A stretch of 64,000 nucleotides of DNA from Planctomycetota bacterium (GCA_029260825.1 JAJDCM010000015.1:1-64000), one strand, 5' to 3'; positions 1-55,121 are shown, counted from the first letter of the stretch. Notes: generated by a model not told the origin, from the letters alone. Made by a program: numbers and translations.

Positions 1-1394
1 AGGAGCCGGATCCGGAGGATGGTCTCAAGGACTACTGCGATCCGACGGTTCTTCGGTCCATCGTCAAGAAGTATTCGGATTTCGTTGCCTATCCGATCAC
101 CCTCACCGTGATCGGCGAAGAGAAGAGTGAGGACGACGATAGCGATAGTGATAGTGATGGCGATGATGGCCCGATCAACTCCATGAAGGCCATCTGGACC
201 CGTCCAAAAAACGAGGTTACTGACGAGGAATACAAGGAGTTTTACAAGCACGTCTCCCACGACTGGAACGACCCCCTTGATCAAGTTCTGGTTCACATCG
301 AAGGAACGTTTGAAGCGCGAGCTCTTCTCTTTATTCCGTCCAAGGCACCTTTTGATCTCTTCCATCGAGAGATGGCCCACCGGGGTATTCAGCTCTATGT
401 GAAACGTGTTTTCATCATGGACGAGTGCGATCAGCTGATGCCCAACTATCTGCGCTTTGTTCGGGGTGTCGTGGATGCGGAAGACCTGTCGCTCAACGTT
501 TCTCGTGAGATTCTGCAGCAAGATCGGCAGATCCAGACCATCAAGAAGCGTCTGGTGAAGAAGGTTCTGGATGCCCTCAGTTTCATGATGGGCGATGATC
601 GGAAGAAGTACGAGGGGTTTTGGAATCAGTTCGGTCCGGCAGTCAAGGAAGGCCTTCTCGATTTTGGCGACGATCGGGACAAGATCCTTGAGCTCATCCT
701 GACCGGCTCGACTCATCATGCGACCGATCTTACGAGCCTCAAGGATTACATCTCTCGCATGCCCGAGGGGCAGGATGCAGTTTACTTCCTGACCGGAGAA
801 ACCCGCGAGGCGATTGAAAACTCACCCCACCTCGAAGCCTTCAAGAACAAGGGCTATGAGGTCCTCTTCTTCACGGATCGGGTCGACGAAATCTGGCTCG
901 AGGGAATGCCCATCGAATTTGAGGAGAAGAAACTCGTCTCGGTCGGAAAAGGGGCGATCGAACTCGGTTCCGAGGAAGAACGCGAAAAGAAGAAGGAAGA
1001 GCTCGAGGAAAAACAAACCGAGATCAAGGATCTTCTCGATCGAATCCGTGCGGTCCTGCAAGACGACGTCAAGGACGTTCGACTCTCCTCCCGCCTGACC
1101 GAATCCCCGGCGTGCCTGGTGAACGATGAGGGAGAGATGACCCCGCAAATCGAGGCTCTTCTTCGTCAGTCGGGTCAAGACGTTCCGAAGGTGAAAAGGA
1201 TCCTCGAAGTGAATCCGGATCACGCGATTCTGCAAAAGCTCCAGTCTCTCTTTGAGAGTGATCCTCAAGGAACAGATCTCGAGGATGGAGCTTGGCTTCT
1301 CTATGGGCAGTCGGTGCTGGCGGAAGGGGGGCGTCTTGAAGACCCTGCAACCTTTGGCAAGAGGCTTGCTGCTTTGATGGCGAAGGGGCTGTAG
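1..1394 (+). CDS. htpG: Molecular chaperone HtpG (Hsp90), C-terminal part
   Basis: The 5' end lies outside the window; the frame is open from base 3. The visible part is the end of the N-domain (IVKKYSDFVAYPI), the middle domain (KAIWTRPKNEV, LFIPSKAPFDLF, YVKRVFIMD, LSLNVSREILQQ) and the C-terminal dimerisation domain (VKDVRLSSRL, ending AALMAKGL). These are signature stretches of cytosolic ATP-dependent Hsp90 chaperones. The linker between N- and middle domains is unusually acidic (a run of Glu/Asp/Ser near bases 117-166), recalling the charged linker of eukaryotic Hsp90, while many bacterial HtpG have a short one. The stop is followed after 8 bases by the next gene, so the two may be cotranscribed. 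The family call is certain. Confidence 0.97.
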   Translation, partial: EPDPEDGLKDYCDPTVLRSIVKKYSDFVAYPITLTVIGEEKSEDDDSDSDSDGDDGPINSMKAIWTRPKNEVTDEEYKEFYKHVSHDWNDPLDQVLVHIEGTFEARALLFIPSKAPFDLFHREMAHRGIQLYVKRVFIMDECDQLMPNYLRFVRGVVDAEDLSLNVSREILQQDRQIQTIKKRLVKKVLDALSFMMGDDRKKYEGFWNQFGPAVKEGLLDFGDDRDKILELILTGSTHHATDLTSLKDYISRMPEGQDAVYFLTGETREAIENSPHLEAFKNKGYEVLFFTDRVDEIWLEGMPIEFEEKKLVSVGKGAIELGSEEEREKKKEELEEKQTEIKDLLDRIRAVLQDDVKDVRLSSRLTESPACLVNDEGEMTPQIEALLRQSGQDVPKVKRILEVNPDHAILQKLQSLFESDPQGTDLEDGAWLLYGQSVLAEGGRLEDPATFGKRLAALMAKGL

Positions 1395-1402
1395 CGGGGA
1401 TC

Positions 1403-2632
1403 TTGGCTGAAGTGACTCCACCTCAAGTAGAGTTTTCTCCCGAGCGAGCCTTCATCGTGAGGGTGGCTGAGCTTCTTCACGCCTATGGAACACCTTCTCA
1501 TCGGCTAGAGAGAGTTCTCGTCAAGATCGCCAAAAGCCTGAAGATCAAGGCCCAGTTTCTGTCCACCCCCACGTCGTTGATCGCGGCGTTCGGGGAGGGG
1601 GAGAATCAGCGCACCCATCTCGTCCGAGTCGATCCGACTTCGGTTGATCTTGGAAAACTCGTGGAGTTTGACGAGATCATGGAGGACGTTGAGCAGGGTC
1701 GGATTCAGATCCGTGAGGGGCTTGTTCGACTCGAGTCGGTGGCTCATTCAGGCGCGCGCTACGGCCCATGGCTTCGACTCTTGGCGTTCGGTGTGGCGTC
1801 AGCGAGCGCTGCCCGTTTTTTTGGCGGCGGGCTTGAAGAAGTCATCCTGTCCCTGATGATCGGGGTTGTTACCGGTCTTGTCGATTTGCTCATTCAAAGG
1901 CGAAGGGATGTGGTTGACATCTTCGAGCCTCTGGCGGCTTTTCTTGCGGGGTTTCTTTCCATCTCCGCGGTCGGTCTCGGATTCGCCGTGTCGAGCGAGA
2001 TCGTGACCTTGTCGGGTTTGATCGTTCTGATCCCGGGGCTCACACTTACCGTTGCCATGATCGAGCTGGCGACCCGGCATCTGGTTGCGGGGATGGCGAG
2101 GTTTGCCGGGGCAGCGACGATCTTCCTGATGATTGCTCTGGGAGTTGCACTGGCTCGAAAGGTCGGAGCCGGGCTTTTCCCGGTGATCACGTCCGACCAG
2201 ATCGTCTCTCTTCCCGGTTGGACCGAATGGATTGCCCTTGGACTCGCTCCGGTTGCATTTCTCGTTCTCTTTCAGGCGAGAGTTCGAGAGCTGCCAGTTG
2301 TATTTATTACCGGGGTCGTCGGTTTTCTCGGAGCTCGCCTCGGAACCATGATGCTGGGAGCGGAAATCGGCTCGTGTCTGGGAGCTCTTCTGGTCGGCCT
2401 CTTGAGCAATGGCTATGCCAGGCTCTTCAATCGACCTGCATCGGTTCCGCTCATGCCGGGGATCCTGATTCTCGTTCCCGGCTCGGTCGGCTTTCGAAGC
2501 CTGTCGTTTTTCCTGGAACAAGATGCAATCTCGGGGATGGAGGCTGCGTTTCAGACGGCGCTGATGGCGGTCTCGTTGGTCGGAGGGCTGCTTGCGGCCA
2601 ATGTTCTCGTGCCGCCGCGACGGGTCTTGTGA
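1403..2632 (+). CDS. Threonine/serine exporter ThrE-family membrane protein (DUF1212)
   Basis: A 409-residue protein. The soluble N-terminal part (about 1-125) has family features: RVAELLHAYGTPSHRLE at the start, a FLSTPTSLIAAFG segment and VRVDPTSVDLGKL. About ten hydrophobic segments follow, with the second half (about 265-409) resembling the ThrE_2 module (MPGILILVPGSVGFRSL). This is the one-chain form of the ThrE / DUF1212 family, whose studied members export threonine and serine across the inner membrane. The substrate here is inferred from the family. The start is TTG, preceded by GGGGA six bases upstream; no better in-frame start is seen. It sits 8 bases after htpG and is followed by a bidirectional terminator hairpin. 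Confidence 0.85.
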   Translation: MAEVTPPQVEFSPERAFIVRVAELLHAYGTPSHRLERVLVKIAKSLKIKAQFLSTPTSLIAAFGEGENQRTHLVRVDPTSVDLGKLVEFDEIMEDVEQGRIQIREGLVRLESVAHSGARYGPWLRLLAFGVASASAARFFGGGLEEVILSLMIGVVTGLVDLLIQRRRDVVDIFEPLAAFLAGFLSISAVGLGFAVSSEIVTLSGLIVLIPGLTLTVAMIELATRHLVAGMARFAGAATIFLMIALGVALARKVGAGLFPVITSDQIVSLPGWTEWIALGLAPVAFLVLFQARVRELPVVFITGVVGFLGARLGTMMLGAEIGSCLGALLVGLLSNGYARLFNRPASVPLMPGILILVPGSVGFRSLSFFLEQDAISGMEAAFQTALMAVSLVGGLLAANVLVPPRRVL

Positions 2633-2652
2633 TCCCATATGGCAAAAAAAAT

Positions 2653-2691
2653 ACCGGAGGGAGGACGATTCTGTCCTCCTACCGGTTTCTT
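2653..2691. terminator. Bidirectional intrinsic terminator between convergent genes
   Basis: An inverted repeat spans 2653-2686: ACCGG pairs with CCGGT and GAGGAC with GTCCTC, with loop GATTCT and one small internal mismatch. On the plus strand it is followed by TTTCTT. On the minus strand it is followed by a long T run, the complement of the A run at 2644-2651. It lies between the convergent ThrE-type exporter and the pseudopilin operon, so it can stop both; the minus-strand side looks stronger. Confidence 0.8.
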
Positions 2692-2717
2692 GATTCCTGG
2701 GATGTGTCGTCAGGGTC

Positions 2718-4157
2718 TCATCGACAGAATTCGAGGTTGTCGATTCCGGCGGAGGCGGTGACGAAGATATCGATTCCCACCACCGAAGTTTCATCGAAGT
2801 CAGGTGTTTCATTTGCCGTTGCCGTGGCGACGTATCCGACCTGATCGGTGATGATCGTGAGATCGAGGGCCTTGTAGCCGGGAGGACCTTCGCTCGCAAC
2901 ATCACGGGTCCATCCTCCGGGAACGGTATACACTCTGGTCTCCCCTTTGGAATCTGTAAGGGTGACGATGCACCCTTGATTTCCCTGGTCGATGTCCACG
3001 AGAGTGACCGATTGAGGCTTGGAAGGAGCGACGAAATCGAAATGGAACACTCCACCTCCTCCATCGTCATCCGGCCGGGAGAAGATGCGCGACCCGACGG
3101 AAACTCGGAGGCTGTTTTCCTGAAGAATGAGGATGTTTCCGAGATCGACGAGTAGGTCCGAGTCATATCCGGGATCATTTCCTCCACCGACATTCGAGTC
3201 GAAGATCGCTGGACCGAAGTTGTCTCCGCTCGACGTGATACTGACCAATCTTCCGAATTCGGGCTCAGTCCAAATGCTCTGGCCATTGACCAGCGGAGTC
3301 TTGAAGTCATCCTCCGTGTCGAAGTTGATTACGCTACAGCAACCACCCAGCGTGTCTCCATGAGCCAGGTGAGCATTCACTGAACTGAGGGGAATTTCCA
3401 TGTTGTGCGGTGAGCCACTTCCCGCAGGCACATGGCAAACGATGACTTTGGAACCGCACGAGACGGTGCCGTCGCTCGTGGGGAGAGTGGCGCTGGAGTT
3501 CGGGTTGATGGTCACGTAGGTTACGGGTGCTGGCCCCGGGAGATAGGGTACTCCATGATCGTCGGTCAGGTATTCGTTGCCACCTTCAAGATACTCCCCA
3601 TCTTGGAGAATGTCGATGAGATCCAAGATGTTGGATGGAAGCGGCCTGCAAGGGTTGTTGTTGATGTTGTATTGTTCGATGGCGATCCGAATCGCGGCGA
3701 TTTCTCGGTTGGTGGTCGTTCGGAGGATCGAGCTGGTATCAATGACAAGGTCGAGATCGTCCCCGGAGCCGTTGTCATTGGCACGGTTTGAGCCGTAGCT
3801 TCGGATGATGCGCTCGGAAGCGCTTGATCCGGCAAGCAGCATGTAGGCGGTGTCCCATTCGTCCTTGAGCGTGGAAGAGGACTCGCCGTCATTCCGTCCA
3901 GATGTCATGTAGACCCCGTCCCAGTCGGTAGCCGTATTATCGACAAGCGTGGCCAGGCCCGTGGGAAAGACCTCATTGTTCTCGTAGAAGATGAGAACCG
4001 CGTCTCTGATCCTCAGCATTTCTTTCCGTGTTTCCTTTTCCCAGGCCTGGGTCAAGACATAGTCGGTAGCTGGGATTCCCAACGCGAACAAGAGGCTCAC
4101 AATGGTGAGGACAGCCAGTATTTCGATCGATGTAAATCCGCTATTGTATCGTTTCAT
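2718..4157 (-). CDS. Pseudopilin with doubled GspG-like head and long C-terminal extension
   Basis: A secreted pilin-like protein of about 479 residues. The start at 4157 is chosen because GGAAGG precedes it and it gives a short class III leader, MKRYNSG|FTSIE, with Glu at +5 and a hydrophobic helix (about 9-30). An upstream in-frame ATG at 4184 overlaps the preceding stop but would lengthen the leader. The head has two tandem units like those of its two upstream paralogues: 'FYENNEVFP..LATLV ... GSNRANDNGSGDDL', then 'IAIEQYN ... LP..ILDLIDILQDGEYL'. It then adds a Cys-containing motif (CHVPAG...HLAHGD...GGC), seen in my recollection in many secreted bacterial proteins, and a C-terminal beta-rich domain ending NLEFC, resembling a lectin-like or choice-of-anchor domain. 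It is last of three tandem pseudopilin genes. Partner secretion machinery is not adjacent. Confidence 0.8.
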   Translation of the reverse strand: MKRYNSGFTSIEILAVLTIVSLLFALGIPATDYVLTQAWEKETRKEMLRIRDAVLIFYENNEVFPTGLATLVDNTATDWDGVYMTSGRNDGESSSTLKDEWDTAYMLLAGSSASERIIRSYGSNRANDNGSGDDLDLVIDTSSILRTTTNREIAAIRIAIEQYNINNNPCRPLPSNILDLIDILQDGEYLEGGNEYLTDDHGVPYLPGPAPVTYVTINPNSSATLPTSDGTVSCGSKVIVCHVPAGSGSPHNMEIPLSSVNAHLAHGDTLGGCCSVINFDTEDDFKTPLVNGQSIWTEPEFGRLVSITSSGDNFGPAIFDSNVGGGNDPGYDSDLLVDLGNILILQENSLRVSVGSRIFSRPDDDGGGGVFHFDFVAPSKPQSVTLVDIDQGNQGCIVTLTDSKGETRVYTVPGGWTRDVASEGPPGYKALDLTIITDQVGYVATATANETPDFDETSVVGIDIFVTASAGIDNLEFCR

Positions 4158-4180
4158 TTCTTTCCTTCCACTTACGCAGA

Positions 4181-4930
4181 TCATGGGGCGCCCGGGGAAA
4201 AGACTTCCAGGACGGGAGTCTGACCACCGGTGGAGTATTCCTGCGACCAGGCGTCATACCGGTACTTCGCCTTCGCGGCTGCTCCCGTCGGCAAATAGTT
4301 TGCTGCTTGGAGTTCGTCCAGCAACGTGGACATGGTTGTCGACAACGGATTGCTGTAGAGGAAATCGGCGTTGTACGTGGCGATGACACTGTTCAGGGAT
4401 GAGAGCTCAGCTCGAGTCAGATCGCCAAGGACCGGGCCCACATCGACGTTCAGGACGATGTCGTCCCCGCCGCCGCTATCGTTCGTTCGATTGGGGCCGA
4501 GGCTGGTGATCCTCCTCACGGTAGCACTTACTGACGAGTAAATGTATGCGTTCAGATACTCATCCTCTTTATAGGAATCCTTGTTGGCGACCTCATCATT
4601 GAACCCACCTTCAAGGTAGGGTCCCATCCAGCCTGATGGCTTGGTGGATGGGGAAACAAGGTCAGCGAGAGTTGCTGGAAATGCCTCTACATCCCTGTAG
4701 TAGTCAAGAATGGCATCGCCGAGGGTGACGATTTCCTTGCGGGTCTCGTTGAGCATTTTGGATGTGATGTATGACTCTGGAATCGTAACGGCGACACCGA
4801 TCAGGAGTGAAAAGATCATCACGACGGCCGTCATTTCAAGGAGAGTAAATCCAGATTCTGCAGCGGGTGTGGTTGTCATGGTTGGTCTGTTCAATGGATT
4901 CATTTTCGTTATTCTTTTGATTGTCTTCAT
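4181..4930 (-). CDS. Pseudopilin with doubled GspG-like head
   Basis: A 249-residue prepilin. The leader is long (27 residues), ending AAESG|FTLLE with Glu at +5, followed by a hydrophobic helix (TAVVMIFSLLIGVAV). The start at 4930 is supported by AGGAAGAGAAGGGG just upstream; later ATGs lack a ribosome-binding site. The head carries two related units. Unit 1 is ETRKEIVTLGDAILDYYRD..AFPATLADLV..GWMGPYL up to the acidic loop LGPNRTNDSGGGDD. Unit 2 is ELSSLNSVIATYNAD up to LLDELQAANYLP, then DAWSQEY. The acidic loop resembles the calcium site region of GspG major pseudopilins. It is the middle gene of the cluster; its stop touches the first possible start of the next gene. The role in a type II-like secretion pseudopilus or type IV pilus is inferred. 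Confidence 0.8.
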   Translation of the reverse strand: MKTIKRITKMNPLNRPTMTTTPAAESGFTLLEMTAVVMIFSLLIGVAVTIPESYITSKMLNETRKEIVTLGDAILDYYRDVEAFPATLADLVSPSTKPSGWMGPYLEGGFNDEVANKDSYKEDEYLNAYIYSSVSATVRRITSLGPNRTNDSGGGDDIVLNVDVGPVLGDLTRAELSSLNSVIATYNADFLYSNPLSTTMSTLLDELQAANYLPTGAAAKAKYRYDAWSQEYSTGGQTPVLEVFSPGAP

Positions 4931-4968
4931 CCCCTTCTCTTCCTGATCGCGCCTTGGACGATCCCTAT

Positions 4969-5688
4969 CTATTGCGATGAGTCCGGATCCCCTGAGGAGT
5001 TGACCGAGTACACGGTAGGTGCTCCCTGGGGCACATAGCTTTGATTCCAGGAGTCTGCCAGGAATCGAGTTTTGCTGACTGTCCCCGAGGGGATGAACCC
5101 CTGGGCCTGAATCAGATCAAGGGCTGCGCTCCAGTTTGTTGGAAGTTGTGTCCCTGGATTGGCACTGTTGTAGGCCGCGATCGAGGTGCGAAGGTGCCGA
5201 AGCTCCCAGTTTGTCTTGGAGTAGAGGAGGGCATTCACTTGAACCATGGTGGAGAGGTCGTCCCCGGAGGCTGAATCATCGGTCCCGTTCGGACCGAACG
5301 AGCGAGCTCTGGCAACCGAGTCGGTGATGATGTCGAGGACGTAGGGGGATCCCCAGGCATCGCAGGTCAGATCAAGACCCGTATCTTCGTCGATCTGAAT
5401 CGTCTTCTTGAGATACGGCCCGAGCCAGCCTTTGCTTCCCGTTGGCTTTGTAACGAGGTCGGCGATGGACGCTGGAAAGGCGCCCATGTCTTCGTAAAAG
5501 CGATAACAGGCGCGAGTAATCAGTTCCATTTCCTCGCTAGTTTCGTCGGAAAAGTCTGAGTCGAGCGAGCGGGTCACGACGGTCATGGCAAGGCCCACTC
5601 CCACGGCAGTAATTGCCACGAGCAGGAGAGCACCGAACAGCATGAAACCGTGTTCAGATGATCTGAATGTCCGGTCTTTCTCAGGCAT
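4969..5688 (-). CDS. Pseudopilin-like protein lacking the +5 glutamate
   Basis: About 239 residues from the start at 5688, which has GGAGAA seven bases upstream; an in-frame start at 5730 lacks one. The N-terminus reads EHG|FMLFGALLLVAITAVGVGLAMTV (split here at the likely cleavage point), so it has the Gly-Phe prepilin junction and hydrophobic helix but Gly instead of Glu at +5, as in GspK/PilX-type minor pseudopilins. The head has the same doubled plan as the two downstream proteins: 'RFYEDMGAFPASIADLV ... GWLGPYL ... DAWGSPYVL ... FGPNGTDDSASGDDL', then 'ELRHLRTSIAAYNS ... ALDLIQAQGFIPSG ... DSWNQSYVP'. It is first in the three-gene leftward cluster and may be the tip or priming subunit. 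That role is inference. Confidence 0.75.
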   Translation of the reverse strand: MPEKDRTFRSSEHGFMLFGALLLVAITAVGVGLAMTVVTRSLDSDFSDETSEEMELITRACYRFYEDMGAFPASIADLVTKPTGSKGWLGPYLKKTIQIDEDTGLDLTCDAWGSPYVLDIITDSVARARSFGPNGTDDSASGDDLSTMVQVNALLYSKTNWELRHLRTSIAAYNSANPGTQLPTNWSAALDLIQAQGFIPSGTVSKTRFLADSWNQSYVPQGAPTVYSVNSSGDPDSSQ

Positions 5689-46059: not shown

Positions 46060-49000
46060 TCAGCGACCCTGCCAGTACATTGAGTATCGCCCCACCTTCG
46101 GCGCCCACTCGGTCCAAAAATCCAGTGCTTCGGGAACTCGACCCTTGACCCTTTCAAGAAGCGGAAGGAGTTCTTCAAGTTCCACGGGGGCGTCTCCATA
46201 CATCCTGATGTAGGTGCGAAGGCTATTTGGTTCTTGATCACCCAACAGGCTCAAGAATTGGGGGAAGGACTCGGGGCGAACCTCTTTTGGAAGTTCGTTG
46301 GGCCAGGCCAATGCGCGCAGGAGAACGGACCCGGCGTGAGGGAATCCGATGTTGATGGCCAAGAGGACCTGAACGGCCCGATGGCCTGCATGGCGATTAT
46401 TCTGGTTCGATCGAAGGAATGACTCGTATTTCTCCTTCGGAACACCGACTCGAAGCAGACGATAGACGGCAACAAACCGCTTGATCAACCTTGGAGTTGC
46501 GATGAACGATCCGAGACTTTCCATGAAGGCCCGCTCCCAGGGCTCGATGTAGAAGATCTTTCGGGCAGGATCGTTCTGGCCTGGTTTCGTTGTCGCAGGG
46601 GTCGACGTTCTTTGTTGTGGGACCTCGCCGGTATTGATGTTCGAAGATGCGTCGCTGATCTTTTGAGCCCCTTCCTCCGTGTGGGTTTTGGGCCGGGGTT
46701 CGTCTGGGCTTTTCTTCGCGACGACGGTGTCGACTGTTTTCTTTTTGTCTTCCGTTTTCGTTTGTCTTTGTCGTTCTACTTCGGTCTCCGGTTTATCCTC
46801 GACAGGTTGCTCGCCAACGAGCGGGAAGTGAGCCTTCATCATGTCCGCGAAGCCATCGTCTTGAACTCGAGGCAAGGTGAACGGCACTTGAAAGATCTTC
46901 TCCAGGTAATCTTGAGCCGACGCGGCCCGGTGACTGAAGGACTCTTCGCCGGCCTGACTCTTGCCAAGGAGAGGTCCGAGCTGGTTTTTCAGGGATCGCT
47001 CCAGCCATCTCGCGTCAACTCCAACGACGGCAACGAAGAGATCGAAGGCCAGGAGCAAGTGTACGGCCTGGAGAACTTCTTCAACTCGATCGGAAGAACA
47101 GCGGTCAAGATCATCGATGTAGAGGATGATGCGCTGGATGGGGAGTTTGTCGACCTCGTCTTCGCCGATTTTTTTGAGGGTTTTGGCGGTCGGCCCCTCG
47201 GGAGATGGCTCATCCTTCTTCCATTCTTGAAGAAGGTGAGCGAGGGTTTTCAGATCTCTGCGCACCGTCGAGACGATTCCTTCTCGGGATCGGTAGGTCC
47301 CTTCGTCCGCGGTTTTTTCGAGGACGAAGTCGTAGACCAGCTTTCCTGCGTGAAGGGCCTCCAGCTCTCCTTGAATCTGGGCAAAGCTTTTTTCTAGATC
47401 TCTTTTTTTTGCCCGGGTTGTTTCAACGAGGGCTCGGGACGTATCCCGATCCTTCCGCAGCTGGTCGGTATTTCCGTCATTTTTGAGTTCATCCAGGACT
47501 TCCTCCTGAATCTCCGTTCCTTTTCGAGACACGGTGTCTGAAAGATCAAGAAGCTTCCCCATGGAGGTGAGTTTTGGCGTGAGCCAGGCGACGACCGAAG
47601 CGATGCCGGTGGTTGCCTGAACAATCCAGGTAAGAGAGCTCGATAGATCGATGTCGGCGCCAAGGAGCTTGATCAGGGCAGGCCCCCCAAGAACCGCGGC
47701 CAGTCCGATGAGCCAGCCCATCTTGTTGACGGAGACTCGATTCCAGAGAGTCGAAATTCGTCCGGATAAGGTGCGGATTTCGGCGACGACTTTCTGGATC
47801 TCTTCCGGGGTTTCGAGTGCTTCGTCGAACGCAAGGTCGTTGTGGTGAGTGAGGCCCAGTCTTCTGGCGGCTGCGATGGCTTCTTCTTGTGTGATGTCGA
47901 CGGACTTCCGAAGAGCTTTCCAGAACCTGGGATTCGTGATGGATGATAGATCCTTGATGCTCTGTTCCAGTTCTTTTTCACGTTGGTTGAGCTCTTCCTG
48001 GATTTCGCTGAGGCGATTGGCCGCGGCCAGTTCCGCTTCAGAGGCTTGTTCCCGAGCATCGTGAGTAGAACGAAGTCGTTCCCTCAGCTTCTGGCGCACG
48101 GCTGAGTTGTCTGGATTGGTCTTTTTGGTTTCGTCTTTTCCAATATGTTCGGCGATTTCGTCGAAAATGCGTCCGGCAAGGCTCGCCCAGAGGTCGGCGT
48201 CCAGATAGTGCCAGGCATTGAATTCGATCTGACAGATCTGCGGCCAGTTGTCCGGTTTCTTGCTCTCCTTGCTCACGGCCTTTTGCATGAGATCCATGAA
48301 ATACGACTTTCCCGAACCCCAGTCTCCAAAGAGACCGATGGCAAGAGGGGGAGTGAGGCTTTTCGAGGCAATCACTTTTGCGAAGATGTTTGCCTGCCAC
48401 TCGACATTGAGGCAGTCTTTCGTATCGATTCCATCATTTGGAATATCCGGGAAGACCTGGGTTAAATTCAGCTGAAGCCCGGCGCCGCTCAGAACACGAT
48501 CTACCACCTTGCTGGCGATCTCTGATTTCTTTGCAAAAGGGAGGGAAGGGATCGAAAGATGTTCCTGGGCATCGATTCCCGGCACTCCGAGGCGACTCCA
48601 TTGCTCTTGAATTTTCTTGTGAACATCTTGCGCTTCCTCGCTATCGCAGGGGAGGGCGAGAACGAGTTTCCCTTTTCTCCAGGCGATATCGGCGAGCCAT
48701 TTGACGTTGGGCCCTCCGTCGAGAATCAGGATGAAGTCGGATGGAGCAACAGTTCCTTCGGCCCAGCTTTCGGTCGCTGTGAGTTGGAACCGATCGAAAA
48801 TCGGGGCTCTTACGCTTCCTTCGGTGATGAGCTGCACGGCGGGGATCTTTCCTTCCACGACCGAGTGGCTGACGAAGGTCTGGGCGACGATGGCGTCGAT
48901 TCCCTCGAATCCTCCGGTAATGATACCTACGTTACGACGAGCGAGGAGGAGACCAATCGACTGGGCCAGGTACTGGCAATCCGAGGAGAGGTTGTCGGTT

Positions 49001-50124
49001 CCTCCTGCCACGCAAACCCAGGCTTCCACTTCGGGTGGGGCGGGAGGGTTTTCGAGGTGAGGAAGGAAGCCTATGTGTGACCGGAGCAAAGTGACGGGGA
49101 GAGCGAAGAGGGTGTTGCCTTCACTTCGGGACAGGATCGCTACAACTTCATCGTTCACGAGAATCGGGGATCCCAGAGCGTGCTCATGAACGACGGTTGA
49201 TTCGGGGAGAATGATCTTGAGGAGTGGAACGGGTGGCGAACCTTCTTCGACCCATTTGCCGATCGTGCCGGTGACCGAAGTTCTGGTGGCTGGTTTGTTC
49301 GGGGACGGGTTTGATGGGAGATCGAGCTGGCACGGCTCGCCTTCACCGGGGATCTCGATGGCGATCTCAAGGGGATCCTGAGGAAAAGAAAGATGATCTT
49401 TGAGCTGGACGAGGGCAATGCCGAAGGTTTCGTCTTGCAGCTCGATGATGGCTTCACTGTTTTCGTTTCCGGGGAGGTTTATCGAAAAAGTCGAGTCGAG
49501 TGGAAGCTTCGTTGCGAGTGCCACCGCATGCTTGCGGGAGATCATGAATGCCGTACCAAGAATCGTTCCAGCGCCGGTGAGTAGGCCGGTTGCACTCGTT
49601 TCGGTGAGATTCGACTTTTTGGGGGGAAAATCGGCTTGCTCTTGAACCGGTGGCGATTGCTTCTTTTGAACCGGTTGAAAATCCTCGGAAGGAGCTTCCG
49701 GTTGGAGTTGTCCCAGAATTATCTCCGCCACCCGATCGATTCCGCCTTCGTCGTCGACGGAATAAGCTTTACGTTCCGAAAGTTCCGGAAAGCTGATGGA
49801 GGCGTCCTGGCCTTCCTTGTTGAGGAAGACGGGAATGACCCGGCCGAGTGGAGCGCTGGTTTCTTCGTACTTGAGGGCCTGCTCGAGCTCTCTTCTCTGG
49901 TATTCGGCTTCTCGGCTGGAGCCGGATAGCAGCGCCACCACAAACCGGCTTGTCTTCAGCTGCTGAGCGAGCATTCCATCCCAATCTTCTCCGTCGAAGA
50001 GGGATCGAGAATCAACCACGGAGCCGCCTCGAGTGAGGGTTTTTGAAAGCTCCGTCGCTGCGTCGAGATCGGAAGGGTCGTATGAGACAAAGAAGTCGGT
50101 CAGGGACTTGGTCTGAGTATCCAT
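46060..50124 (-). CDS. TIR - trypsin-like (inactive) - SLOG-like - KAP P-loop NTPase fusion protein
   Basis: About 1354 residues from the ATG at 50124, which has GGAGAA six bases upstream; a TTG at 50145 has none. Domains in order (numbered from this start): TIR (about 6-140) with DFFVSYDPSD strand and candidate NADase Glu79 in YQRRELEQALKY; Pro/Gln linker; trypsin-like fold (about 178-355) in which the His, Asp and Ser positions all appear replaced (RKHAVALATKL, TFGIALVQL, HEHALGSPILV); SLOG/LOG-type Rossmann domain (about 367-545) with VAGGT and IITGGFEGIDAIVA; KAP NTPase (about 570-1330) with Walker A GDWGSGKS (600-607), Walker B ILYIDDLDR, a coiled coil, two hydrophobic segments (about 804-848) and the conserved C-terminal FIATPRLIKRFVAVYRLL. 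KAP and TIR families recur in defence and stress systems. Function inferred: NTP-controlled membrane-linked switch. Confidence 0.85.
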   Translation of the reverse strand: MDTQTKSLTDFFVSYDPSDLDAATELSKTLTRGGSVVDSRSLFDGEDWDGMLAQQLKTSRFVVALLSGSSREAEYQRRELEQALKYEETSAPLGRVIPVFLNKEGQDASISFPELSERKAYSVDDEGGIDRVAEIILGQLQPEAPSEDFQPVQKKQSPPVQEQADFPPKKSNLTETSATGLLTGAGTILGTAFMISRKHAVALATKLPLDSTFSINLPGNENSEAIIELQDETFGIALVQLKDHLSFPQDPLEIAIEIPGEGEPCQLDLPSNPSPNKPATRTSVTGTIGKWVEEGSPPVPLLKIILPESTVVHEHALGSPILVNDEVVAILSRSEGNTLFALPVTLLRSHIGFLPHLENPPAPPEVEAWVCVAGGTDNLSSDCQYLAQSIGLLLARRNVGIITGGFEGIDAIVAQTFVSHSVVEGKIPAVQLITEGSVRAPIFDRFQLTATESWAEGTVAPSDFILILDGGPNVKWLADIAWRKGKLVLALPCDSEEAQDVHKKIQEQWSRLGVPGIDAQEHLSIPSLPFAKKSEIASKVVDRVLSGAGLQLNLTQVFPDIPNDGIDTKDCLNVEWQANIFAKVIASKSLTPPLAIGLFGDWGSGKSYFMDLMQKAVSKESKKPDNWPQICQIEFNAWHYLDADLWASLAGRIFDEIAEHIGKDETKKTNPDNSAVRQKLRERLRSTHDAREQASEAELAAANRLSEIQEELNQREKELEQSIKDLSSITNPRFWKALRKSVDITQEEAIAAARRLGLTHHNDLAFDEALETPEEIQKVVAEIRTLSGRISTLWNRVSVNKMGWLIGLAAVLGGPALIKLLGADIDLSSSLTWIVQATTGIASVVAWLTPKLTSMGKLLDLSDTVSRKGTEIQEEVLDELKNDGNTDQLRKDRDTSRALVETTRAKKRDLEKSFAQIQGELEALHAGKLVYDFVLEKTADEGTYRSREGIVSTVRRDLKTLAHLLQEWKKDEPSPEGPTAKTLKKIGEDEVDKLPIQRIILYIDDLDRCSSDRVEEVLQAVHLLLAFDLFVAVVGVDARWLERSLKNQLGPLLGKSQAGEESFSHRAASAQDYLEKIFQVPFTLPRVQDDGFADMMKAHFPLVGEQPVEDKPETEVERQRQTKTEDKKKTVDTVVAKKSPDEPRPKTHTEEGAQKISDASSNINTGEVPQQRTSTPATTKPGQNDPARKIFYIEPWERAFMESLGSFIATPRLIKRFVAVYRLLRVGVPKEKYESFLRSNQNNRHAGHRAVQVLLAINIGFPHAGSVLLRALAWPNELPKEVRPESFPQFLSLLGDQEPNSLRTYIRMYGDAPVELEELLPLLERVKGRVPEALDFWTEWAPKVGRYSMYWQGR

Positions 50125-50198
50125 CAGCGATTCTCCAGTGGACAAGCATGGCCCTTGTCAACGGACTGCTAAGGATACATCACGCGTCGTACATTGTT

Positions 50199-52046
50199 CT
50201 ACTTCGAGCCCGACTTCAACCTCTCTTGAGCTTCATACTGGAGGAGATACAGCTTTTTGTACAGCCCGCCTTTTTGGATCAATTCCTGATGATTTCCCTC
50301 TTCTCGAATTTCTCCGCGATGAATCACCAGGATGCGGTCGGCGCGTTGAATCGTGGAGAGCCGATGAGCCACGATGATCGACGTTCTCCCTTTCAGAAGT
50401 TTTTCAAGGGCGCTCTGGATGAGCACCTCGGTTTCGGTGTCCACGCTTGATGTCGCTTCATCCAGGATCAAGATACGAGGGTCAAACGCCAGCGCTCTTG
50501 CGAACGAGAGGAGCTGGCGCTCACCAACAGAGAGGCTAAGCCCTCTCTCCATCACCGGAGTTTCGAACCTCTTTGGAAGCTTGTTGATGAACCGGGAAGC
50601 GTTCACGTGGCGCGAGACCTCTTCGATTCTCTCGTCGGTAATGGTTTCGTCTTCGCCGAGCTTGATGTTGTCTGCGATTGTTCCCGAGAAAAGGAAGACG
50701 TCCTGGAGAACAACTCCGATTTGAGCCCGCAGCGTCTGCTTGCGATAATCCCTTACATCCACCCCATCCACCAGGACCCGGCCTGCTGTCACATCGTAAA
50801 ACCGGGGAATCAGATTGATGATGGTGGTTTTTCCGGCGCCTGTGGCCCCGACGACCGCTACGCTTTCGCCGGGATTCACTTTGAACGAAACGTTCTTCAG
50901 GACGGGGTCGTTCTCGCGGTAGGAGAAGGTCACCTGATCGAACTCGATCGCGCCGCTCAGTTTCTTGCTTTCGACCGGAGCCGCCGGGTTTGCAATTTCG
51001 ACCGGAGAATCAAGCACCCGAAAGATTCTCTCCGAGGATGCCATTGCTGCCTGGAGCACGTTGTACTTCTCCGCCAGCTGACGAATCGGCTCGAAGAAAT
51101 GCTTGGTATAGAACCAGAACTGGATGAACTGCCCGAAGGAAAGGCGACCCGCCGCGATTTCGCGGGAGCCGAGCCACAGTAACACCACGACCCCGAGCTG
51201 AGAAACCACTTCAACTGCAGGATAGAATGTGGAGTAGACCTTCACCGTGTCGAGGTGGGCGTCTCGAAGCTCGGCGTTTCTTTTGGCGAACCGTTCCGCG
51301 CTCTTCTTCTCCTGGCCGAAGATTTGAATGATGCGAAGGCCGGAGATCGCTTCCTGGAGGTAGGCGTTGGTTCTGGCGATTTTCCCTCGCACTTCGCGAT
51401 AGCCGGCTCGGGATCGGATCCGAAAGATATTGGCCACGAGGAAAAGAGGCAAGAGGGCGAGTAGGGTCACCGCGGCAAGCTTCGGGCTGAGATAAAAGAG
51501 GACCGCCACGATGAGGATGAGCTTGAAGAGGTCTTCAAAGATAATTGCTGCCCCGGAAACGAAAACCTCCGAAAGAGATTCCACATCCGAAGTGACCCGA
51601 GTGACGAGCTTTCCGACCGGGTTTCGATCAAAGAAAGAGAGAGACATCTTGTGGACGTGGGCGAAGACTTGTTTTCGTAGGCTGCGAATGATGCTCTGAC
51701 CACACAGGTTCGTGACAACGATCTGGGCGTAGCGAAGAATACTCTCCATCGAGATGAATCCCATGTAGAGAAACACGATTCCCAGGAGATCTCGCATGAC
51801 ATCATCGACAGGTCGATCAGGTCTGTTTGCAAGAGACGTGAGCGGACCATCCACCGCGCACTTGATCAGATAGGGTCCGATCAGGGTGACCCATGACAAG
51901 AGAAATAGAATCGCCAAGGAGGCGGTAAATGATTTCTTGTATGGAAGGACATATTTCATCAACCGCTTGAGGATCTTCCAGTCGATGGCCTTGCCCAGGG
52001 CCTCGTCTTCCTCTTCCAGGAAATCCTTGTCCTGGGGATCGCTCAT
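50199..52046 (-). CDS. ABC exporter half-transporter (MdlB/MsbA type), catalytic partner
   Basis: 615 residues: a six-helix type IV ABC transmembrane domain (about 40-340) and a nucleotide-binding domain with Walker A GATGAGKTT, Q-loop VVLQDVFLFSG, signature LSVGERQLLSFARAL (instead of LSGGQ), Walker B LILDEATSSVD with the catalytic Glu, and H-loop IVAHRLST. The LSVGE signature is usual in MdlB-type halves. It overlaps the next upstream transporter gene by four bases, so the two surely form a heterodimer. Substrate is not evident: lipid, peptide or drug export are all possible. The TIR-KAP gene lies 74 bases downstream on the same strand. Confidence 0.93.
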   Translation of the reverse strand: MSDPQDKDFLEEEDEALGKAIDWKILKRLMKYVLPYKKSFTASLAILFLLSWVTLIGPYLIKCAVDGPLTSLANRPDRPVDDVMRDLLGIVFLYMGFISMESILRYAQIVVTNLCGQSIIRSLRKQVFAHVHKMSLSFFDRNPVGKLVTRVTSDVESLSEVFVSGAAIIFEDLFKLILIVAVLFYLSPKLAAVTLLALLPLFLVANIFRIRSRAGYREVRGKIARTNAYLQEAISGLRIIQIFGQEKKSAERFAKRNAELRDAHLDTVKVYSTFYPAVEVVSQLGVVVLLWLGSREIAAGRLSFGQFIQFWFYTKHFFEPIRQLAEKYNVLQAAMASSERIFRVLDSPVEIANPAAPVESKKLSGAIEFDQVTFSYRENDPVLKNVSFKVNPGESVAVVGATGAGKTTIINLIPRFYDVTAGRVLVDGVDVRDYRKQTLRAQIGVVLQDVFLFSGTIADNIKLGEDETITDERIEEVSRHVNASRFINKLPKRFETPVMERGLSLSVGERQLLSFARALAFDPRILILDEATSSVDTETEVLIQSALEKLLKGRTSIIVAHRLSTIQRADRILVIHRGEIREEGNHQELIQKGGLYKKLYLLQYEAQERLKSGSK

Positions 52047-53797
52047 TGGATCTCCTCCAGGTCTTCCTGTAGCCTCTGCATGCGGAATAGATTTGCGTAG
52101 AGACCGCCTTTTTTCACAAGCTCTTCGTGCTTTCCTCTCTCGACGATTTTCCCGTCGTCAAGAACAAGGATGAGATCGGCGTCTTGAATGGTCGAGATTC
52201 GATGGGCAACGACCAGCGTGGTGCGATCTTTTCGAATTCGGCGGAGTTCTTCAAGAAGCTTGGCTTCGGTCTCGGTGTCGACTGCGGAGAGGCAGTCGTC
52301 CAGGATGAGAATGGTGGGTTTTCGAATGATGGCCCTGGCGATGGATATCCGCTGCTTTTGTCCACCGGAAAGATTGACGCCTCGCTCACCGATTCGCTGG
52401 GCGAAACCATGGGGAAACTCCCGGATCTGATCGGCAACCGCCGCAGCCCCCGCCGCGGCCACAATGATTTCGTCCGTTGCGTTGTGAATGCCGTAGGCAA
52501 TATTATTAGCGATTGTGTCCGAGAAAAGGAACGCATCTTGAGGGACGTAACCGACGGAGTTTCTCAGCAGCCGAAGCGGTACGTCATGGATGTCCATCCC
52601 ATCGATGAAGAGCATGCCTCTTTCGACTTGAAATAGATGGGGAACGAGATTGACGATGGTGCTTTTTCCCGATCCGGTGGGGCCCACAATGGCAACGGTG
52701 CTGCCCGCGGTCGCCTTGAAGCTGATGTCGGAAAGGGCTGTTTCATGGTCAACGCCGTAGCTGAAGTTCAGATTCCGGAATTCGATTTCGCCCCGAAGGC
52801 TCTGGATTTCCTTGATTCCCTCTTTGTCTTGAATCTCAGGCTCGGTGGAGAGAACTTCATCGATTCTCTCCATGGCAGCGACTCCTCGCTGGTACAAGGC
52901 GATCACCCAGCCAAGAGCGATCATCGGCCAGAGAAGCATGAGGTGATAGGAATTGAAGGCGACGAATTCTCCCAGAGTGAGGGTGTTGTTGATGATCTTT
53001 CCACCGCCGACCCAGAGGAGAATCAGGGTTCCGATGTCAGCGAGAACCCAGATGGACGTCACGGTGACTCCCCGTGTGCGGGCGAGGGCGACGTTTGAAT
53101 TCAGGTAGTCTTTTGAAACCGCTTCGAAGGAATTCTCTTCCCTGCGCTCCTGTGAAAAGGCCTTGATGACCCGAACTCCGGAGATACTTTCCTGGGCTCG
53201 GGAGGAAAGATCGGAAAGGAGATCCTGGACCCGCTTCGAGAGCTGGTGAAGCTTGGGCGAGAACTTTCGCATGACGACGGAGAGGACAACGAGGGGAAAC
53301 ATGGACATGAGGGTCAACGGAACGCTCATCGTGAACATCATGAAGAGAGCCGCCGGAACCACCACCATGGTGTTGCAGATGTACATCAAACCCGGGCCGA
53401 TGACCATTCGCACGGCCTCAACATCTGCGGTGGCTCGAGCCATGAGATCGCCGGTTTTGGTCTGATTGAAGTAGGAAAAACTGAGGGTCTGGAGATGCTG
53501 GAAGAGTCGATTTCTGACGAGATATTCCACCCGTCGTGAAACTCCGATGATGAAATAGCGCATCGAGAATTGAAATCCGGCGCGGAGCAGGGTGCACCCG
53601 AAGATAAGAAGGCAAAACGTGTTGACGCGGGAAAGATTGTTTTGATCGATCCGAAGCACGTCGACCGCTTCCCCGAGTAGTCTGGGGATGAGCGCCTGGG
53701 CAAGGTTCGTGAGGAGGAGGGACGAAAACCCTAGAACCAATCGCCAACGATAGCGAGTGAGAAAACAAGTCGCACTTTTGAACTTCTTCAGGAGCAT
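52043..53797 (-). CDS. ABC exporter half-transporter (MdlA type), degenerate-site partner
   Basis: About 584 residues from the ATG at 53797 (MLLKKFKSATCFLTRYRWR, the usual start of the first helix); a start at 53887 would overlap the secretin gene. No clear ribosome-binding site is seen for 53797. Transmembrane domain about 18-320, then a nucleotide-binding domain with Walker A GPTGSGKST, Q-loop YVPQDAFLFSD, canonical LSGGQKQRISIARAI, and Walker B LILDDCLSAVD, where Asp replaces the catalytic Glu. With its partner's LSVGE signature this gives one weak and one strong ATP site, as in TM287/288-type heterodimers. Four-base overlap with the partner gene. Confidence 0.92.
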   Translation of the reverse strand: MLLKKFKSATCFLTRYRWRLVLGFSSLLLTNLAQALIPRLLGEAVDVLRIDQNNLSRVNTFCLLIFGCTLLRAGFQFSMRYFIIGVSRRVEYLVRNRLFQHLQTLSFSYFNQTKTGDLMARATADVEAVRMVIGPGLMYICNTMVVVPAALFMMFTMSVPLTLMSMFPLVVLSVVMRKFSPKLHQLSKRVQDLLSDLSSRAQESISGVRVIKAFSQERREENSFEAVSKDYLNSNVALARTRGVTVTSIWVLADIGTLILLWVGGGKIINNTLTLGEFVAFNSYHLMLLWPMIALGWVIALYQRGVAAMERIDEVLSTEPEIQDKEGIKEIQSLRGEIEFRNLNFSYGVDHETALSDISFKATAGSTVAIVGPTGSGKSTIVNLVPHLFQVERGMLFIDGMDIHDVPLRLLRNSVGYVPQDAFLFSDTIANNIAYGIHNATDEIIVAAAGAAAVADQIREFPHGFAQRIGERGVNLSGGQKQRISIARAIIRKPTILILDDCLSAVDTETEAKLLEELRRIRKDRTTLVVAHRISTIQDADLILVLDDGKIVERGKHEELVKKGGLYANLFRMQRLQEDLEEIQ

Positions 53798-53873
53798 GGA
53801 GTTTTGGGTTGGGTTGGAATTAGGGGGCGCCTTGCGCGCGATCACCAAGGTTACCAATGACCGCAAGGGGAGT

Positions 53874-55121
53874 CTAGTTGGCGGCACCCAGGGGGGAGAG
53901 AATCGCCGGAGCGGGAGCTCCTGGATACACGATTCGAGGGGTCAGAAAAAAGAGCACCTGGGACTGGGCTTTTCGGGTTCGGTGGACGGTGAAGAGGTAT
54001 TTGAGGAGGGGGATGTCCCCGAGAATCGGGGTCTTCAGCACTTCCTCGATTTCCAGGTTCGCGATGAGGCCACCCAGAACAAACGTGTCTTCGCTTCTTA
54101 CGTTCAGGACGGTGGAGGCGTTTCGAGTGGAGATGATCGGGACTGGAAAGCTCCCGCGGACTGCCGGGGTGAATCCGGTGATCGTTGACACCTCTGATGC
54201 CACAACGAGCTGAACGGTGTCGTCGCCGACCAGGTTCGGAGTCACGTTGAGCTTGACTCCGGTTTTCTTGTAGGAGATATCAACAAACGTGACTCCGGCC
54301 TGAACCCGGGTCTTCTGAACCGGGACTTCATCACCGGTAATGATCTCGGCCGTACATCCATCCAGTGTGGTGATGGTGGGGGACGAGATGAGCTCCGCGT
54401 ACCCCTCGGTCACCAGGGCCTGGATCACAAGGTTCGTGAGAAACTCGTCGTGTAGCCCTTCGAGGGTCAGGAGGTTTCCCTGGAAATTCCTCTGTGAGGT
54501 CTGGGCTTCGGCGAAACCGGCCGTGTCAAAGATACCGGTGAAACTTCGGAAGAGGGTTGCCTCGGATCCGCCGACGCTTCCTCCGGCTCTGGTGATGGTC
54601 TCTTCGATCGTATTGCGCAGCCCAAGCTGGGAATCAGATGTGGAGTTGATCTCGACCACCTTGGCTTCGATCTCGATCTGGGGAGCGAGGGCCTCGATGG
54701 AGTCGAGGAAGTTGACGGTTCTGCGGATTTCTTCGAGGCTTCCCGTCACGAGAAGGAGGTCGGTCTTACTTCCTCCCTGTTTGACGTTGAGATCGAAATT
54801 GGGAACGGAGTCGATCTTTGACCCCAGATGTTTGATGACGAGATCCTTCAGCTTGTTGCCGTTTCCAGGTTTCGTCGGGATGTAGCGGGTGAAGACTCCG
54901 GGGGTCACCTCCACCATGAGTTCGGTTCTGGGAGAGGAGTCCGGATAGAGAACCTGGTCTGCGAGAGACTCCGCGGTCGGGTCGTCTTCATTGCCGTTCT
55001 TGACGGATACCGAGGGGCGAGGAAGGTACTCGGAAATATCCGGAATCGAGCTGCACCCCGAAGCCAGGCCCAGCGTCATGGCCAGCGAGAGGAAAAGAAG
55101 TTTGTGCGTTGGAGATGCCAC
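53874..55121 (-). CDS. Short secretin-like lipoprotein 1
   Basis: 415 residues. A lipobox (LGLASGC, Cys at about 23) marks an outer-membrane lipoprotein. After a short N-domain (LKDLVIKHLGSKIDSVPNFDL...DLLLVTGSLEEIRRTVNFLDSI, secretin N1-like) comes the secretin C-domain: PQIEIEAKVVEI, VIQALVTEGYAELISSPTI, TGVKLNVTPNLVG, and the terminal block TFVLGGLIANLEIEEVLKTPILGDIPLLKYLF. Typical GspD/PilQ proteins have several N-domains; this has about one. The start is GTG. It lies 10 bases after a paralogue, so the two may form a mixed or nested outer-membrane channel. Matching pseudopilins are found at 2718-5688 and 21607-23868. Confidence 0.9.
   Translation of the reverse strand: MASPTHKLLFLSLAMTLGLASGCSSIPDISEYLPRPSVSVKNGNEDDPTAESLADQVLYPDSSPRTELMVEVTPGVFTRYIPTKPGNGNKLKDLVIKHLGSKIDSVPNFDLNVKQGGSKTDLLLVTGSLEEIRRTVNFLDSIEALAPQIEIEAKVVEINSTSDSQLGLRNTIEETITRAGGSVGGSEATLFRSFTGIFDTAGFAEAQTSQRNFQGNLLTLEGLHDEFLTNLVIQALVTEGYAELISSPTITTLDGCTAEIITGDEVPVQKTRVQAGVTFVDISYKKTGVKLNVTPNLVGDDTVQLVVASEVSTITGFTPAVRGSFPVPIISTRNASTVLNVRSEDTFVLGGLIANLEIEEVLKTPILGDIPLLKYLFTVHRTRKAQSQVLFFLTPRIVYPGAPAPAILSPLGAAN

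Follow-up and report, generated by a model that had tools for sequence, protein, structure and literature searches.

The gene described here, in a 64,000-nucleotide stretch of Planctomycetota DNA (GCA_029260825.1, JAJDCM010000015.1:1-64000; hereafter the window), joins a TIR domain, a trypsin-like domain, a SLOG domain and a KAP NTPase in a single chain. The identities of the four domains, a lost protease triad, a retained Glu79, retained Walker motifs and relatives that carry no TIR point to a single-gene NTPase switch associated with the membrane and belonging to the conflict (abortive-infection) class, in which SLOG would be the gate, TIR the effector and the trypsin-like domain a relic; this reading is given a probability of roughly 0.4.

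Four folds in one reading frame

The frame is open on the minus strand from 46060 to 50145, with an ATG at 50124 and 1354 codons free of stops (Table 1). That the four folds share one chain had been proposed from the sequence alone, and the intact frame, together with Pfam, profile searches and AlphaFold/Foldseek, bears this out for each of them; the TIR and SLOG assignments, on which that proposal had been staked, both held, and all four domains are real. In PADLOC and NCBIfam the 1354-residue protein is similar to QatA, PifA and PDC-S20, at the level of the KAP part only.

Table 1. Features of the TIR-trypsin-SLOG-KAP protein and their positions in the window
Feature	Residues	Coordinates	Strand	Basis
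Complete ORF		46060..50124	(-)	1354 aa, ATG start
TIR domain	9-140	49705..50100	(-)	Pfam TIR_2, E=3.7e-13; 3h16 match
Catalytic-Glu position of TIR NADases	E79	49888..49890	(-)	Aligned with conserved Glu of 3h16, L004, L010, L037
Trypsin/HtrA-like pseudoprotease	175-360; triad positions T205, G235, L317	49045..49602	(-)	AlphaFold and Foldseek; triad columns against L011/L095
SLOG (LDcluster4-like) Rossmann domain	366-550; GGFEGID loop 404-410; L477, no LOG Glu	48475..49029	(-)	Pfam, profile, AlphaFold model, column comparison
KAP P-loop NTPase module with inserted helices	565-1354	46063..48432	(-)	Pfam, E=3.8e-31; 56-row alignment A9; model pLDDT 77
Walker A, GDWGSGKS	600-607	48304..48327	(-)	G600, W602, G603, G605, K606 invariant in A9
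Walker B, LYIDDLD	1001-1007	47104..47124	(-)	D1004, D1005, D1007 invariant in A9
Hydrophobic (membrane) segment 1	802-821	47662..47721	(-)	Kyte-Doolittle mean up to 1.9
Borderline hydrophobic segment 2	831-849	47578..47634	(-)	Mean about 1.3, hand-computed

The TIR_2 match (residues 11-105) exceeds its curated cut-off, and the domain also finds the solved TIR protein 3h16 (phmmer, E=5e-4), whose conserved Glu in the C helix stands opposite E79; a TIR with a Glu at the NADase position, as the sequence-only reading had it, is thereby recovered. The domain appears to be of the NAD-cleaving type, its NADase activity being predicted. The same Glu is missing from five TIR-HEAT-KAP relatives (L007, L018, L028, L042 and L043; HEAT scored weakly), so that a TIR mounted on KAP need not be an enzyme; in these five a GWGxTQ/H motif replaces the catalytic Glu region. 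The genome of the window (G000) holds nine more TIR_2 matches, three in tandem on C48 (3081-5407) and four on C349 (1929-16153), one in a 1487-aa frame.

The trypsin-like domain, for which Pfam gives no trypsin match in the window protein itself, is recognised through its relatives and its model. The aligned relative L011 has a Trypsin_2 match (E=5.4e-7), a trypsin-SLOG profile that includes the relatives matches HtrA/DegQ protease structures (best 4e-6), and the AlphaFold model of residues 159-565 (mean pLDDT 84.5, pTM 0.82) displays a strand-rich domain followed by one of alternating alpha/beta structure. Foldseek places the model with Deg/HtrA proteases (E to 2e-11) and also with MamO, RsgI9 and other S1-type domains, so the S1 double beta-barrel proposed earlier stands. 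A working protease does not: T205, G235 and L317 occupy the columns of the His, Asp and Ser that are intact in both nearest relatives, L011 and L095, a point absent from the earlier reading, and judged by these residues the domain is a pseudoprotease. One alignment (A7) set H200 at the catalytic His by way of a 6-residue gap; this candidate was rejected because ungapped pairwise and 13-row alignments put T205 there, and because the Asp and Ser columns are lost too. Trypsins at the effector position of vWA-MoxR systems are reportedly nearly all inactive (Kaur 2020, PMC7159879). A Corallococcus protein (L017) combines a trypsin, degenerate by sequence inspection, with Clp_N and KAP.

The SLOG domain scores below the cut-off of Pfam LDcluster4 in the window protein (residues 370-503, E=2.2e-4) and above it in L011. 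Among solved structures the trypsin-SLOG profile finds LOG, DprA and MoCo-carrier proteins, with a best value of 9e-17, and gives a weak match to ThsA (E=0.003); profile and model together, with Pfam alone sub-cut-off, give a LOG-like Rossmann fold with a Gly-rich nucleotide loop, in line with the SLOG/LOG-type domain first suspected. It lacks the mark of a LOG-type hydrolase, for L477 stands at the column of the catalytic Glu of GGxGTxxE; the loop is kept and this Glu is missing in the window protein, L011 and L095 alike. The pattern GGxxG(V/I/T)D without that Glu recurs in L010, L096-L099 and L103 (in the window protein the Asp is D410); LDcluster4 proteins that stand alone differ in having GVM and in keeping the Glu. 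The domain probably binds a nucleotide-type ligand, and probably not as an enzyme, a prediction drawn from its loop and the missing Glu.

Pfam KAP_NTPase covers two stretches of the protein, and in the model a well-predicted P-loop core is split by about 330 residues of helices. Between the Walker A and B motifs, which are invariant in 56 relatives, lies the long membrane-bearing insert expected of the family; 52 of 75 relatives have two hydrophobic peaks in it, the window protein one clear and one borderline segment. The KAP NTPase with membrane segments that had been read from the sequence is thus confirmed. Against solved structures, KAP found no counterpart by sequence, where coiled-coil noise alone was returned, and none by fold at E<=0.001, where weak RdrA/ClpX-like matches appeared.

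Relatives, and a constant core under a varying N-terminus

A KAP alignment scan of 84,980 species genomes, which detects proteins with one of two peptide motifs, gave 436 KAP relatives, of which the best 80 were fetched; in the other genome searches, only a small number of candidates is scored for each genome. Closest is L011, from a Polyangiaceae MAG (JAICQQ010000013.1), which shares trypsin, SLOG and KAP with the window protein (residues 155-1354 aligned, 38% identity) but has a short leader in place of the TIR, and its triad intact. L095, from the Myxococcota draw, starts with a different N-terminal stretch followed by trypsin, SLOG and KAP, with no TIR (its locus measures 2.66 kb, the KAP end missing). 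The full order, which the sequence-only reading did not know from any described system, was met nowhere beyond the window protein: not in the best 80 of the 436 KAP relatives, not among 392 and 293 Planctomycetota (overlapping draws), not in 379, 396 and 399 genomes of the phyla of L011, L022 and L012, respectively (about 1,860 sampled genomes in total), and not in plasmids, phages or IMG/VR.

By Pfam, the N-termini of 77 KAP proteins comprise Macro (7), TIR_2 (6), EVE (5), Clp_N, PG_binding_1 and trypsin (3 each) and WD40 (2); HEAT is a further alternative, and KAP relatives on plasmids add TIR and WD40 N-termini, as well as Clp-like and EVE-like ones by sequence inspection. Across L011-L090, the KAP module, which follows Macro, EVE and even peptidoglycan-binding N-termini, looks like a little-described modular chassis. 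A joint alignment of every N-terminal part (A6) was discarded, since MAFFT laid TIRs on SLOG.

The SLOG type of the window protein is common to MoxR-type conflict proteins, some of them bearing a TIR. A case in point is L010, a single chain with TIR and SLOG whose neighbours are a caspase-VMAP gene and a MoxR-type gene; L103 likewise joins a TIR and a GVD-type SLOG, and the two together favour a functional link between the domains. In L128 a SLOG-bearing protein without TIR adjoins a MoxR-type gene. GVD-type SLOGs thus recur in conflict systems with or without a TIR in the chain. The L128 locus (708-5107), which comes from the Acidobacteriota draw (the phylum of L022), runs from the MoxR-type gene to a vWA-like/SLOG/FGS-like protein. 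GVD-type SLOG proteins of about 520 aa (L096-L099) occur in four genomes of L011's phylum draw, and in L097, the one scanned, the SLOG is joined to a nucleoside phosphorylase domain.

A putative membrane switch weighed against its alternatives

In the favoured reading, the KAP module would bind and hydrolyse NTP, while the coiled-coil/membrane insert would keep the protein off at the membrane until, once triggered, KAP assembles it; SLOG would gate the switch by taking up a nucleotide-type ligand, and the assembled N-terminal TIR would cleave NAD+, whereupon the cell would stop, possibly in defence against phages. These roles are assigned because SLOG-KAP is constant and the N-terminal weapon varies, being a protease in two proteins (L011 and L095) and a TIR in the window protein. 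The trypsin-like domain would be the ancestral effector, left here without catalytic residues as a structural link or binding module. Since L011 and L095, the nearest relatives, are trypsin-SLOG-KAP proteins without TIR, the TIR was probably added, and the comparison suggests that on a modular self-defence switch a protease weapon was replaced by a TIR weapon, a direction (TIR gain, protease loss) read from three proteins and no rooted tree. Against the switch stand the single protein with the full order, the housekeeping neighbours, the scarcity of PADLOC matches beside the KAP relatives and the Glu-less TIRs on HEAT-type KAP relatives.

The sequence-only reading had suggested a loop within the chain or between neighbouring copies. 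As weighed here, a signal of cyclic ADP-ribose type from the TIR would be taken up by SLOG, in cis or in an adjacent chain, and KAP would respond by assembling or by damaging the membrane. A Thoeris SLOG does read a TIR product (PMC9503650), Glu79 is kept, and at least two other proteins (L010 and L103) unite the two domains; but in L011 and L095 SLOG-KAP persists without a TIR, so this SLOG does not require one in its own chain; elsewhere the GVD SLOG is found with a phosphorylase (L097) or in a TIR-less protein (L128), and the profile's match to ThsA is a weak one. A self-contained Thoeris-like loop is compatible with the data, yet weakened by the TIR-less relatives, and on balance unlikely. 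The fullest version, a complete one-chain circuit in which the TIR was grafted on an ancestor armed with a protease that later lost its activity, an ADP-ribose-type messenger is read by the SLOG of the same oligomer, and KAP gives an all-or-none response, is an equally doubtful prospect.

Rather unlikely is that the KAP/membrane module itself kills, as proposed for PifA and perhaps Tmn, with TIR and SLOG confined to sensing or signalling: PADLOC matches to PifA and QatA fall over the KAP part, and across the family the membrane insert stays constant under changing N-termini, but the PADLOC and NCBIfam scores lie far under family level (QatA, 84.5 of 600 bits) and the variable N-termini include plain effectors, for instance trypsins with intact triads. 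The five Glu-less TIR-HEAT-KAP relatives, along with the nine further TIR matches of the genome, several of them in tandem, would suit a TIR that is a non-catalytic self-assembly adaptor, with a distinct TIR enzyme, encoded elsewhere in this genome, being recruited by the protein; the retention of Glu79 in its context, as in L004, L010 and L037, makes this improbable.

The genomic surroundings bear on a last alternative. The gene is flanked by fbp and queF on one side and two ABC exporter subunits on the other (named by sequence inspection); the exporter pair (50199-53887) lies upstream on the same strand across a 75-base gap, and secretin-like and FG-GAP-like genes follow farther out (sequence inspection). 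Inspection of the neighbouring sequences recognised no defence gene beside it. The candidate defence switch of the earlier reading thus keeps its conflict-type domain make-up, but the gene sits among housekeeping-type genes, outside a defence island. A membrane protein for stress or regulation, transcribed together with the exporter genes, would fit this arrangement and the want of a strong defence signal from neighbours; it is quite improbable all the same, given the very patchy distribution, a domain make-up typical of conflict proteins and the plasmid relatives in islands, which lie near SIR2, nucleoside deoxyribosyltransferase, DarT/macro, VapBC (toxin-antitoxin) and integrase genes. Among the genes adjoining the 80 KAP relatives, PADLOC matches were rare, with no clear excess over distant genes under crude gene calling, and an empty-site comparison within the same order met no FBPase match in G003 and a different neighbourhood in G035.

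Known systems and a proposed modular KAP chassis

Tmn, a KAP NTPase with two membrane segments that blocks phages, its mechanism described as unexplored in 2025 (PMC11846954), resembles the window protein in being one gene for a KAP NTPase with inserted membrane helices; no report was found of TIR, trypsin or SLOG domains on Tmn, and PADLOC gave no Tmn match for the window protein. In conflict proteins that join an effector to an NTPase, STAND can give way to a KAP ATPase (Kaur 2021, PMC8195603); as here, these proteins place an N-terminal TIR or trypsin effector before a central STAND or KAP NTPase. Their partners are death-like/EAD or FGS domains, whereas in the window protein KAP is preceded by a row of TIR, dead trypsin and SLOG. 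Effectors of the vWA-MoxR (VMAP) ternary systems include TIR, SLOG and trypsins that are for the most part inactive (Kaur 2020, PMC7159879). With these systems, represented here by L010 and L128, the protein shares the GVD-type SLOG, the TIR (in the L010 chain) and the inactive trypsin; unlike them it has no vWA, MoxR or VMAP partner recognised by eye among the window ORFs. Thoeris (ThsB TIR plus ThsA SIR2-SLOG) also pairs TIR with SLOG, but in separate genes, whereas here one chain, flanked by fbp, queF and ABC exporters, has a KAP NTPase instead of SIR2 and a dead protease between; nor does the QatA score make it a Qat protein. The literature search found no paper joining 'KAP NTPase', TIR and SLOG, and in the light of the KAP/STAND swap, the vWA-MoxR effectors and Tmn the window protein varies a known theme.

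STAND-type proteins carry alternative effectors and sensors in the same manner. The protein points to a little-described family in which KAP NTPases would form a parallel to them, an exchangeable chassis for immunity sensors and effectors with TIR, protease, Macro, EVE, WD40 or HEAT at the N-terminus, and an intact protease without TIR set against a dead protease with TIR offers a testable case of effector replacement. Two further loci (L100 and L102) encode a trypsin, its triad apparently intact, in one chain with a P-loop NTPase that has a hydrophobic segment; in both cases a phosphoesterase-like gene adjoins.
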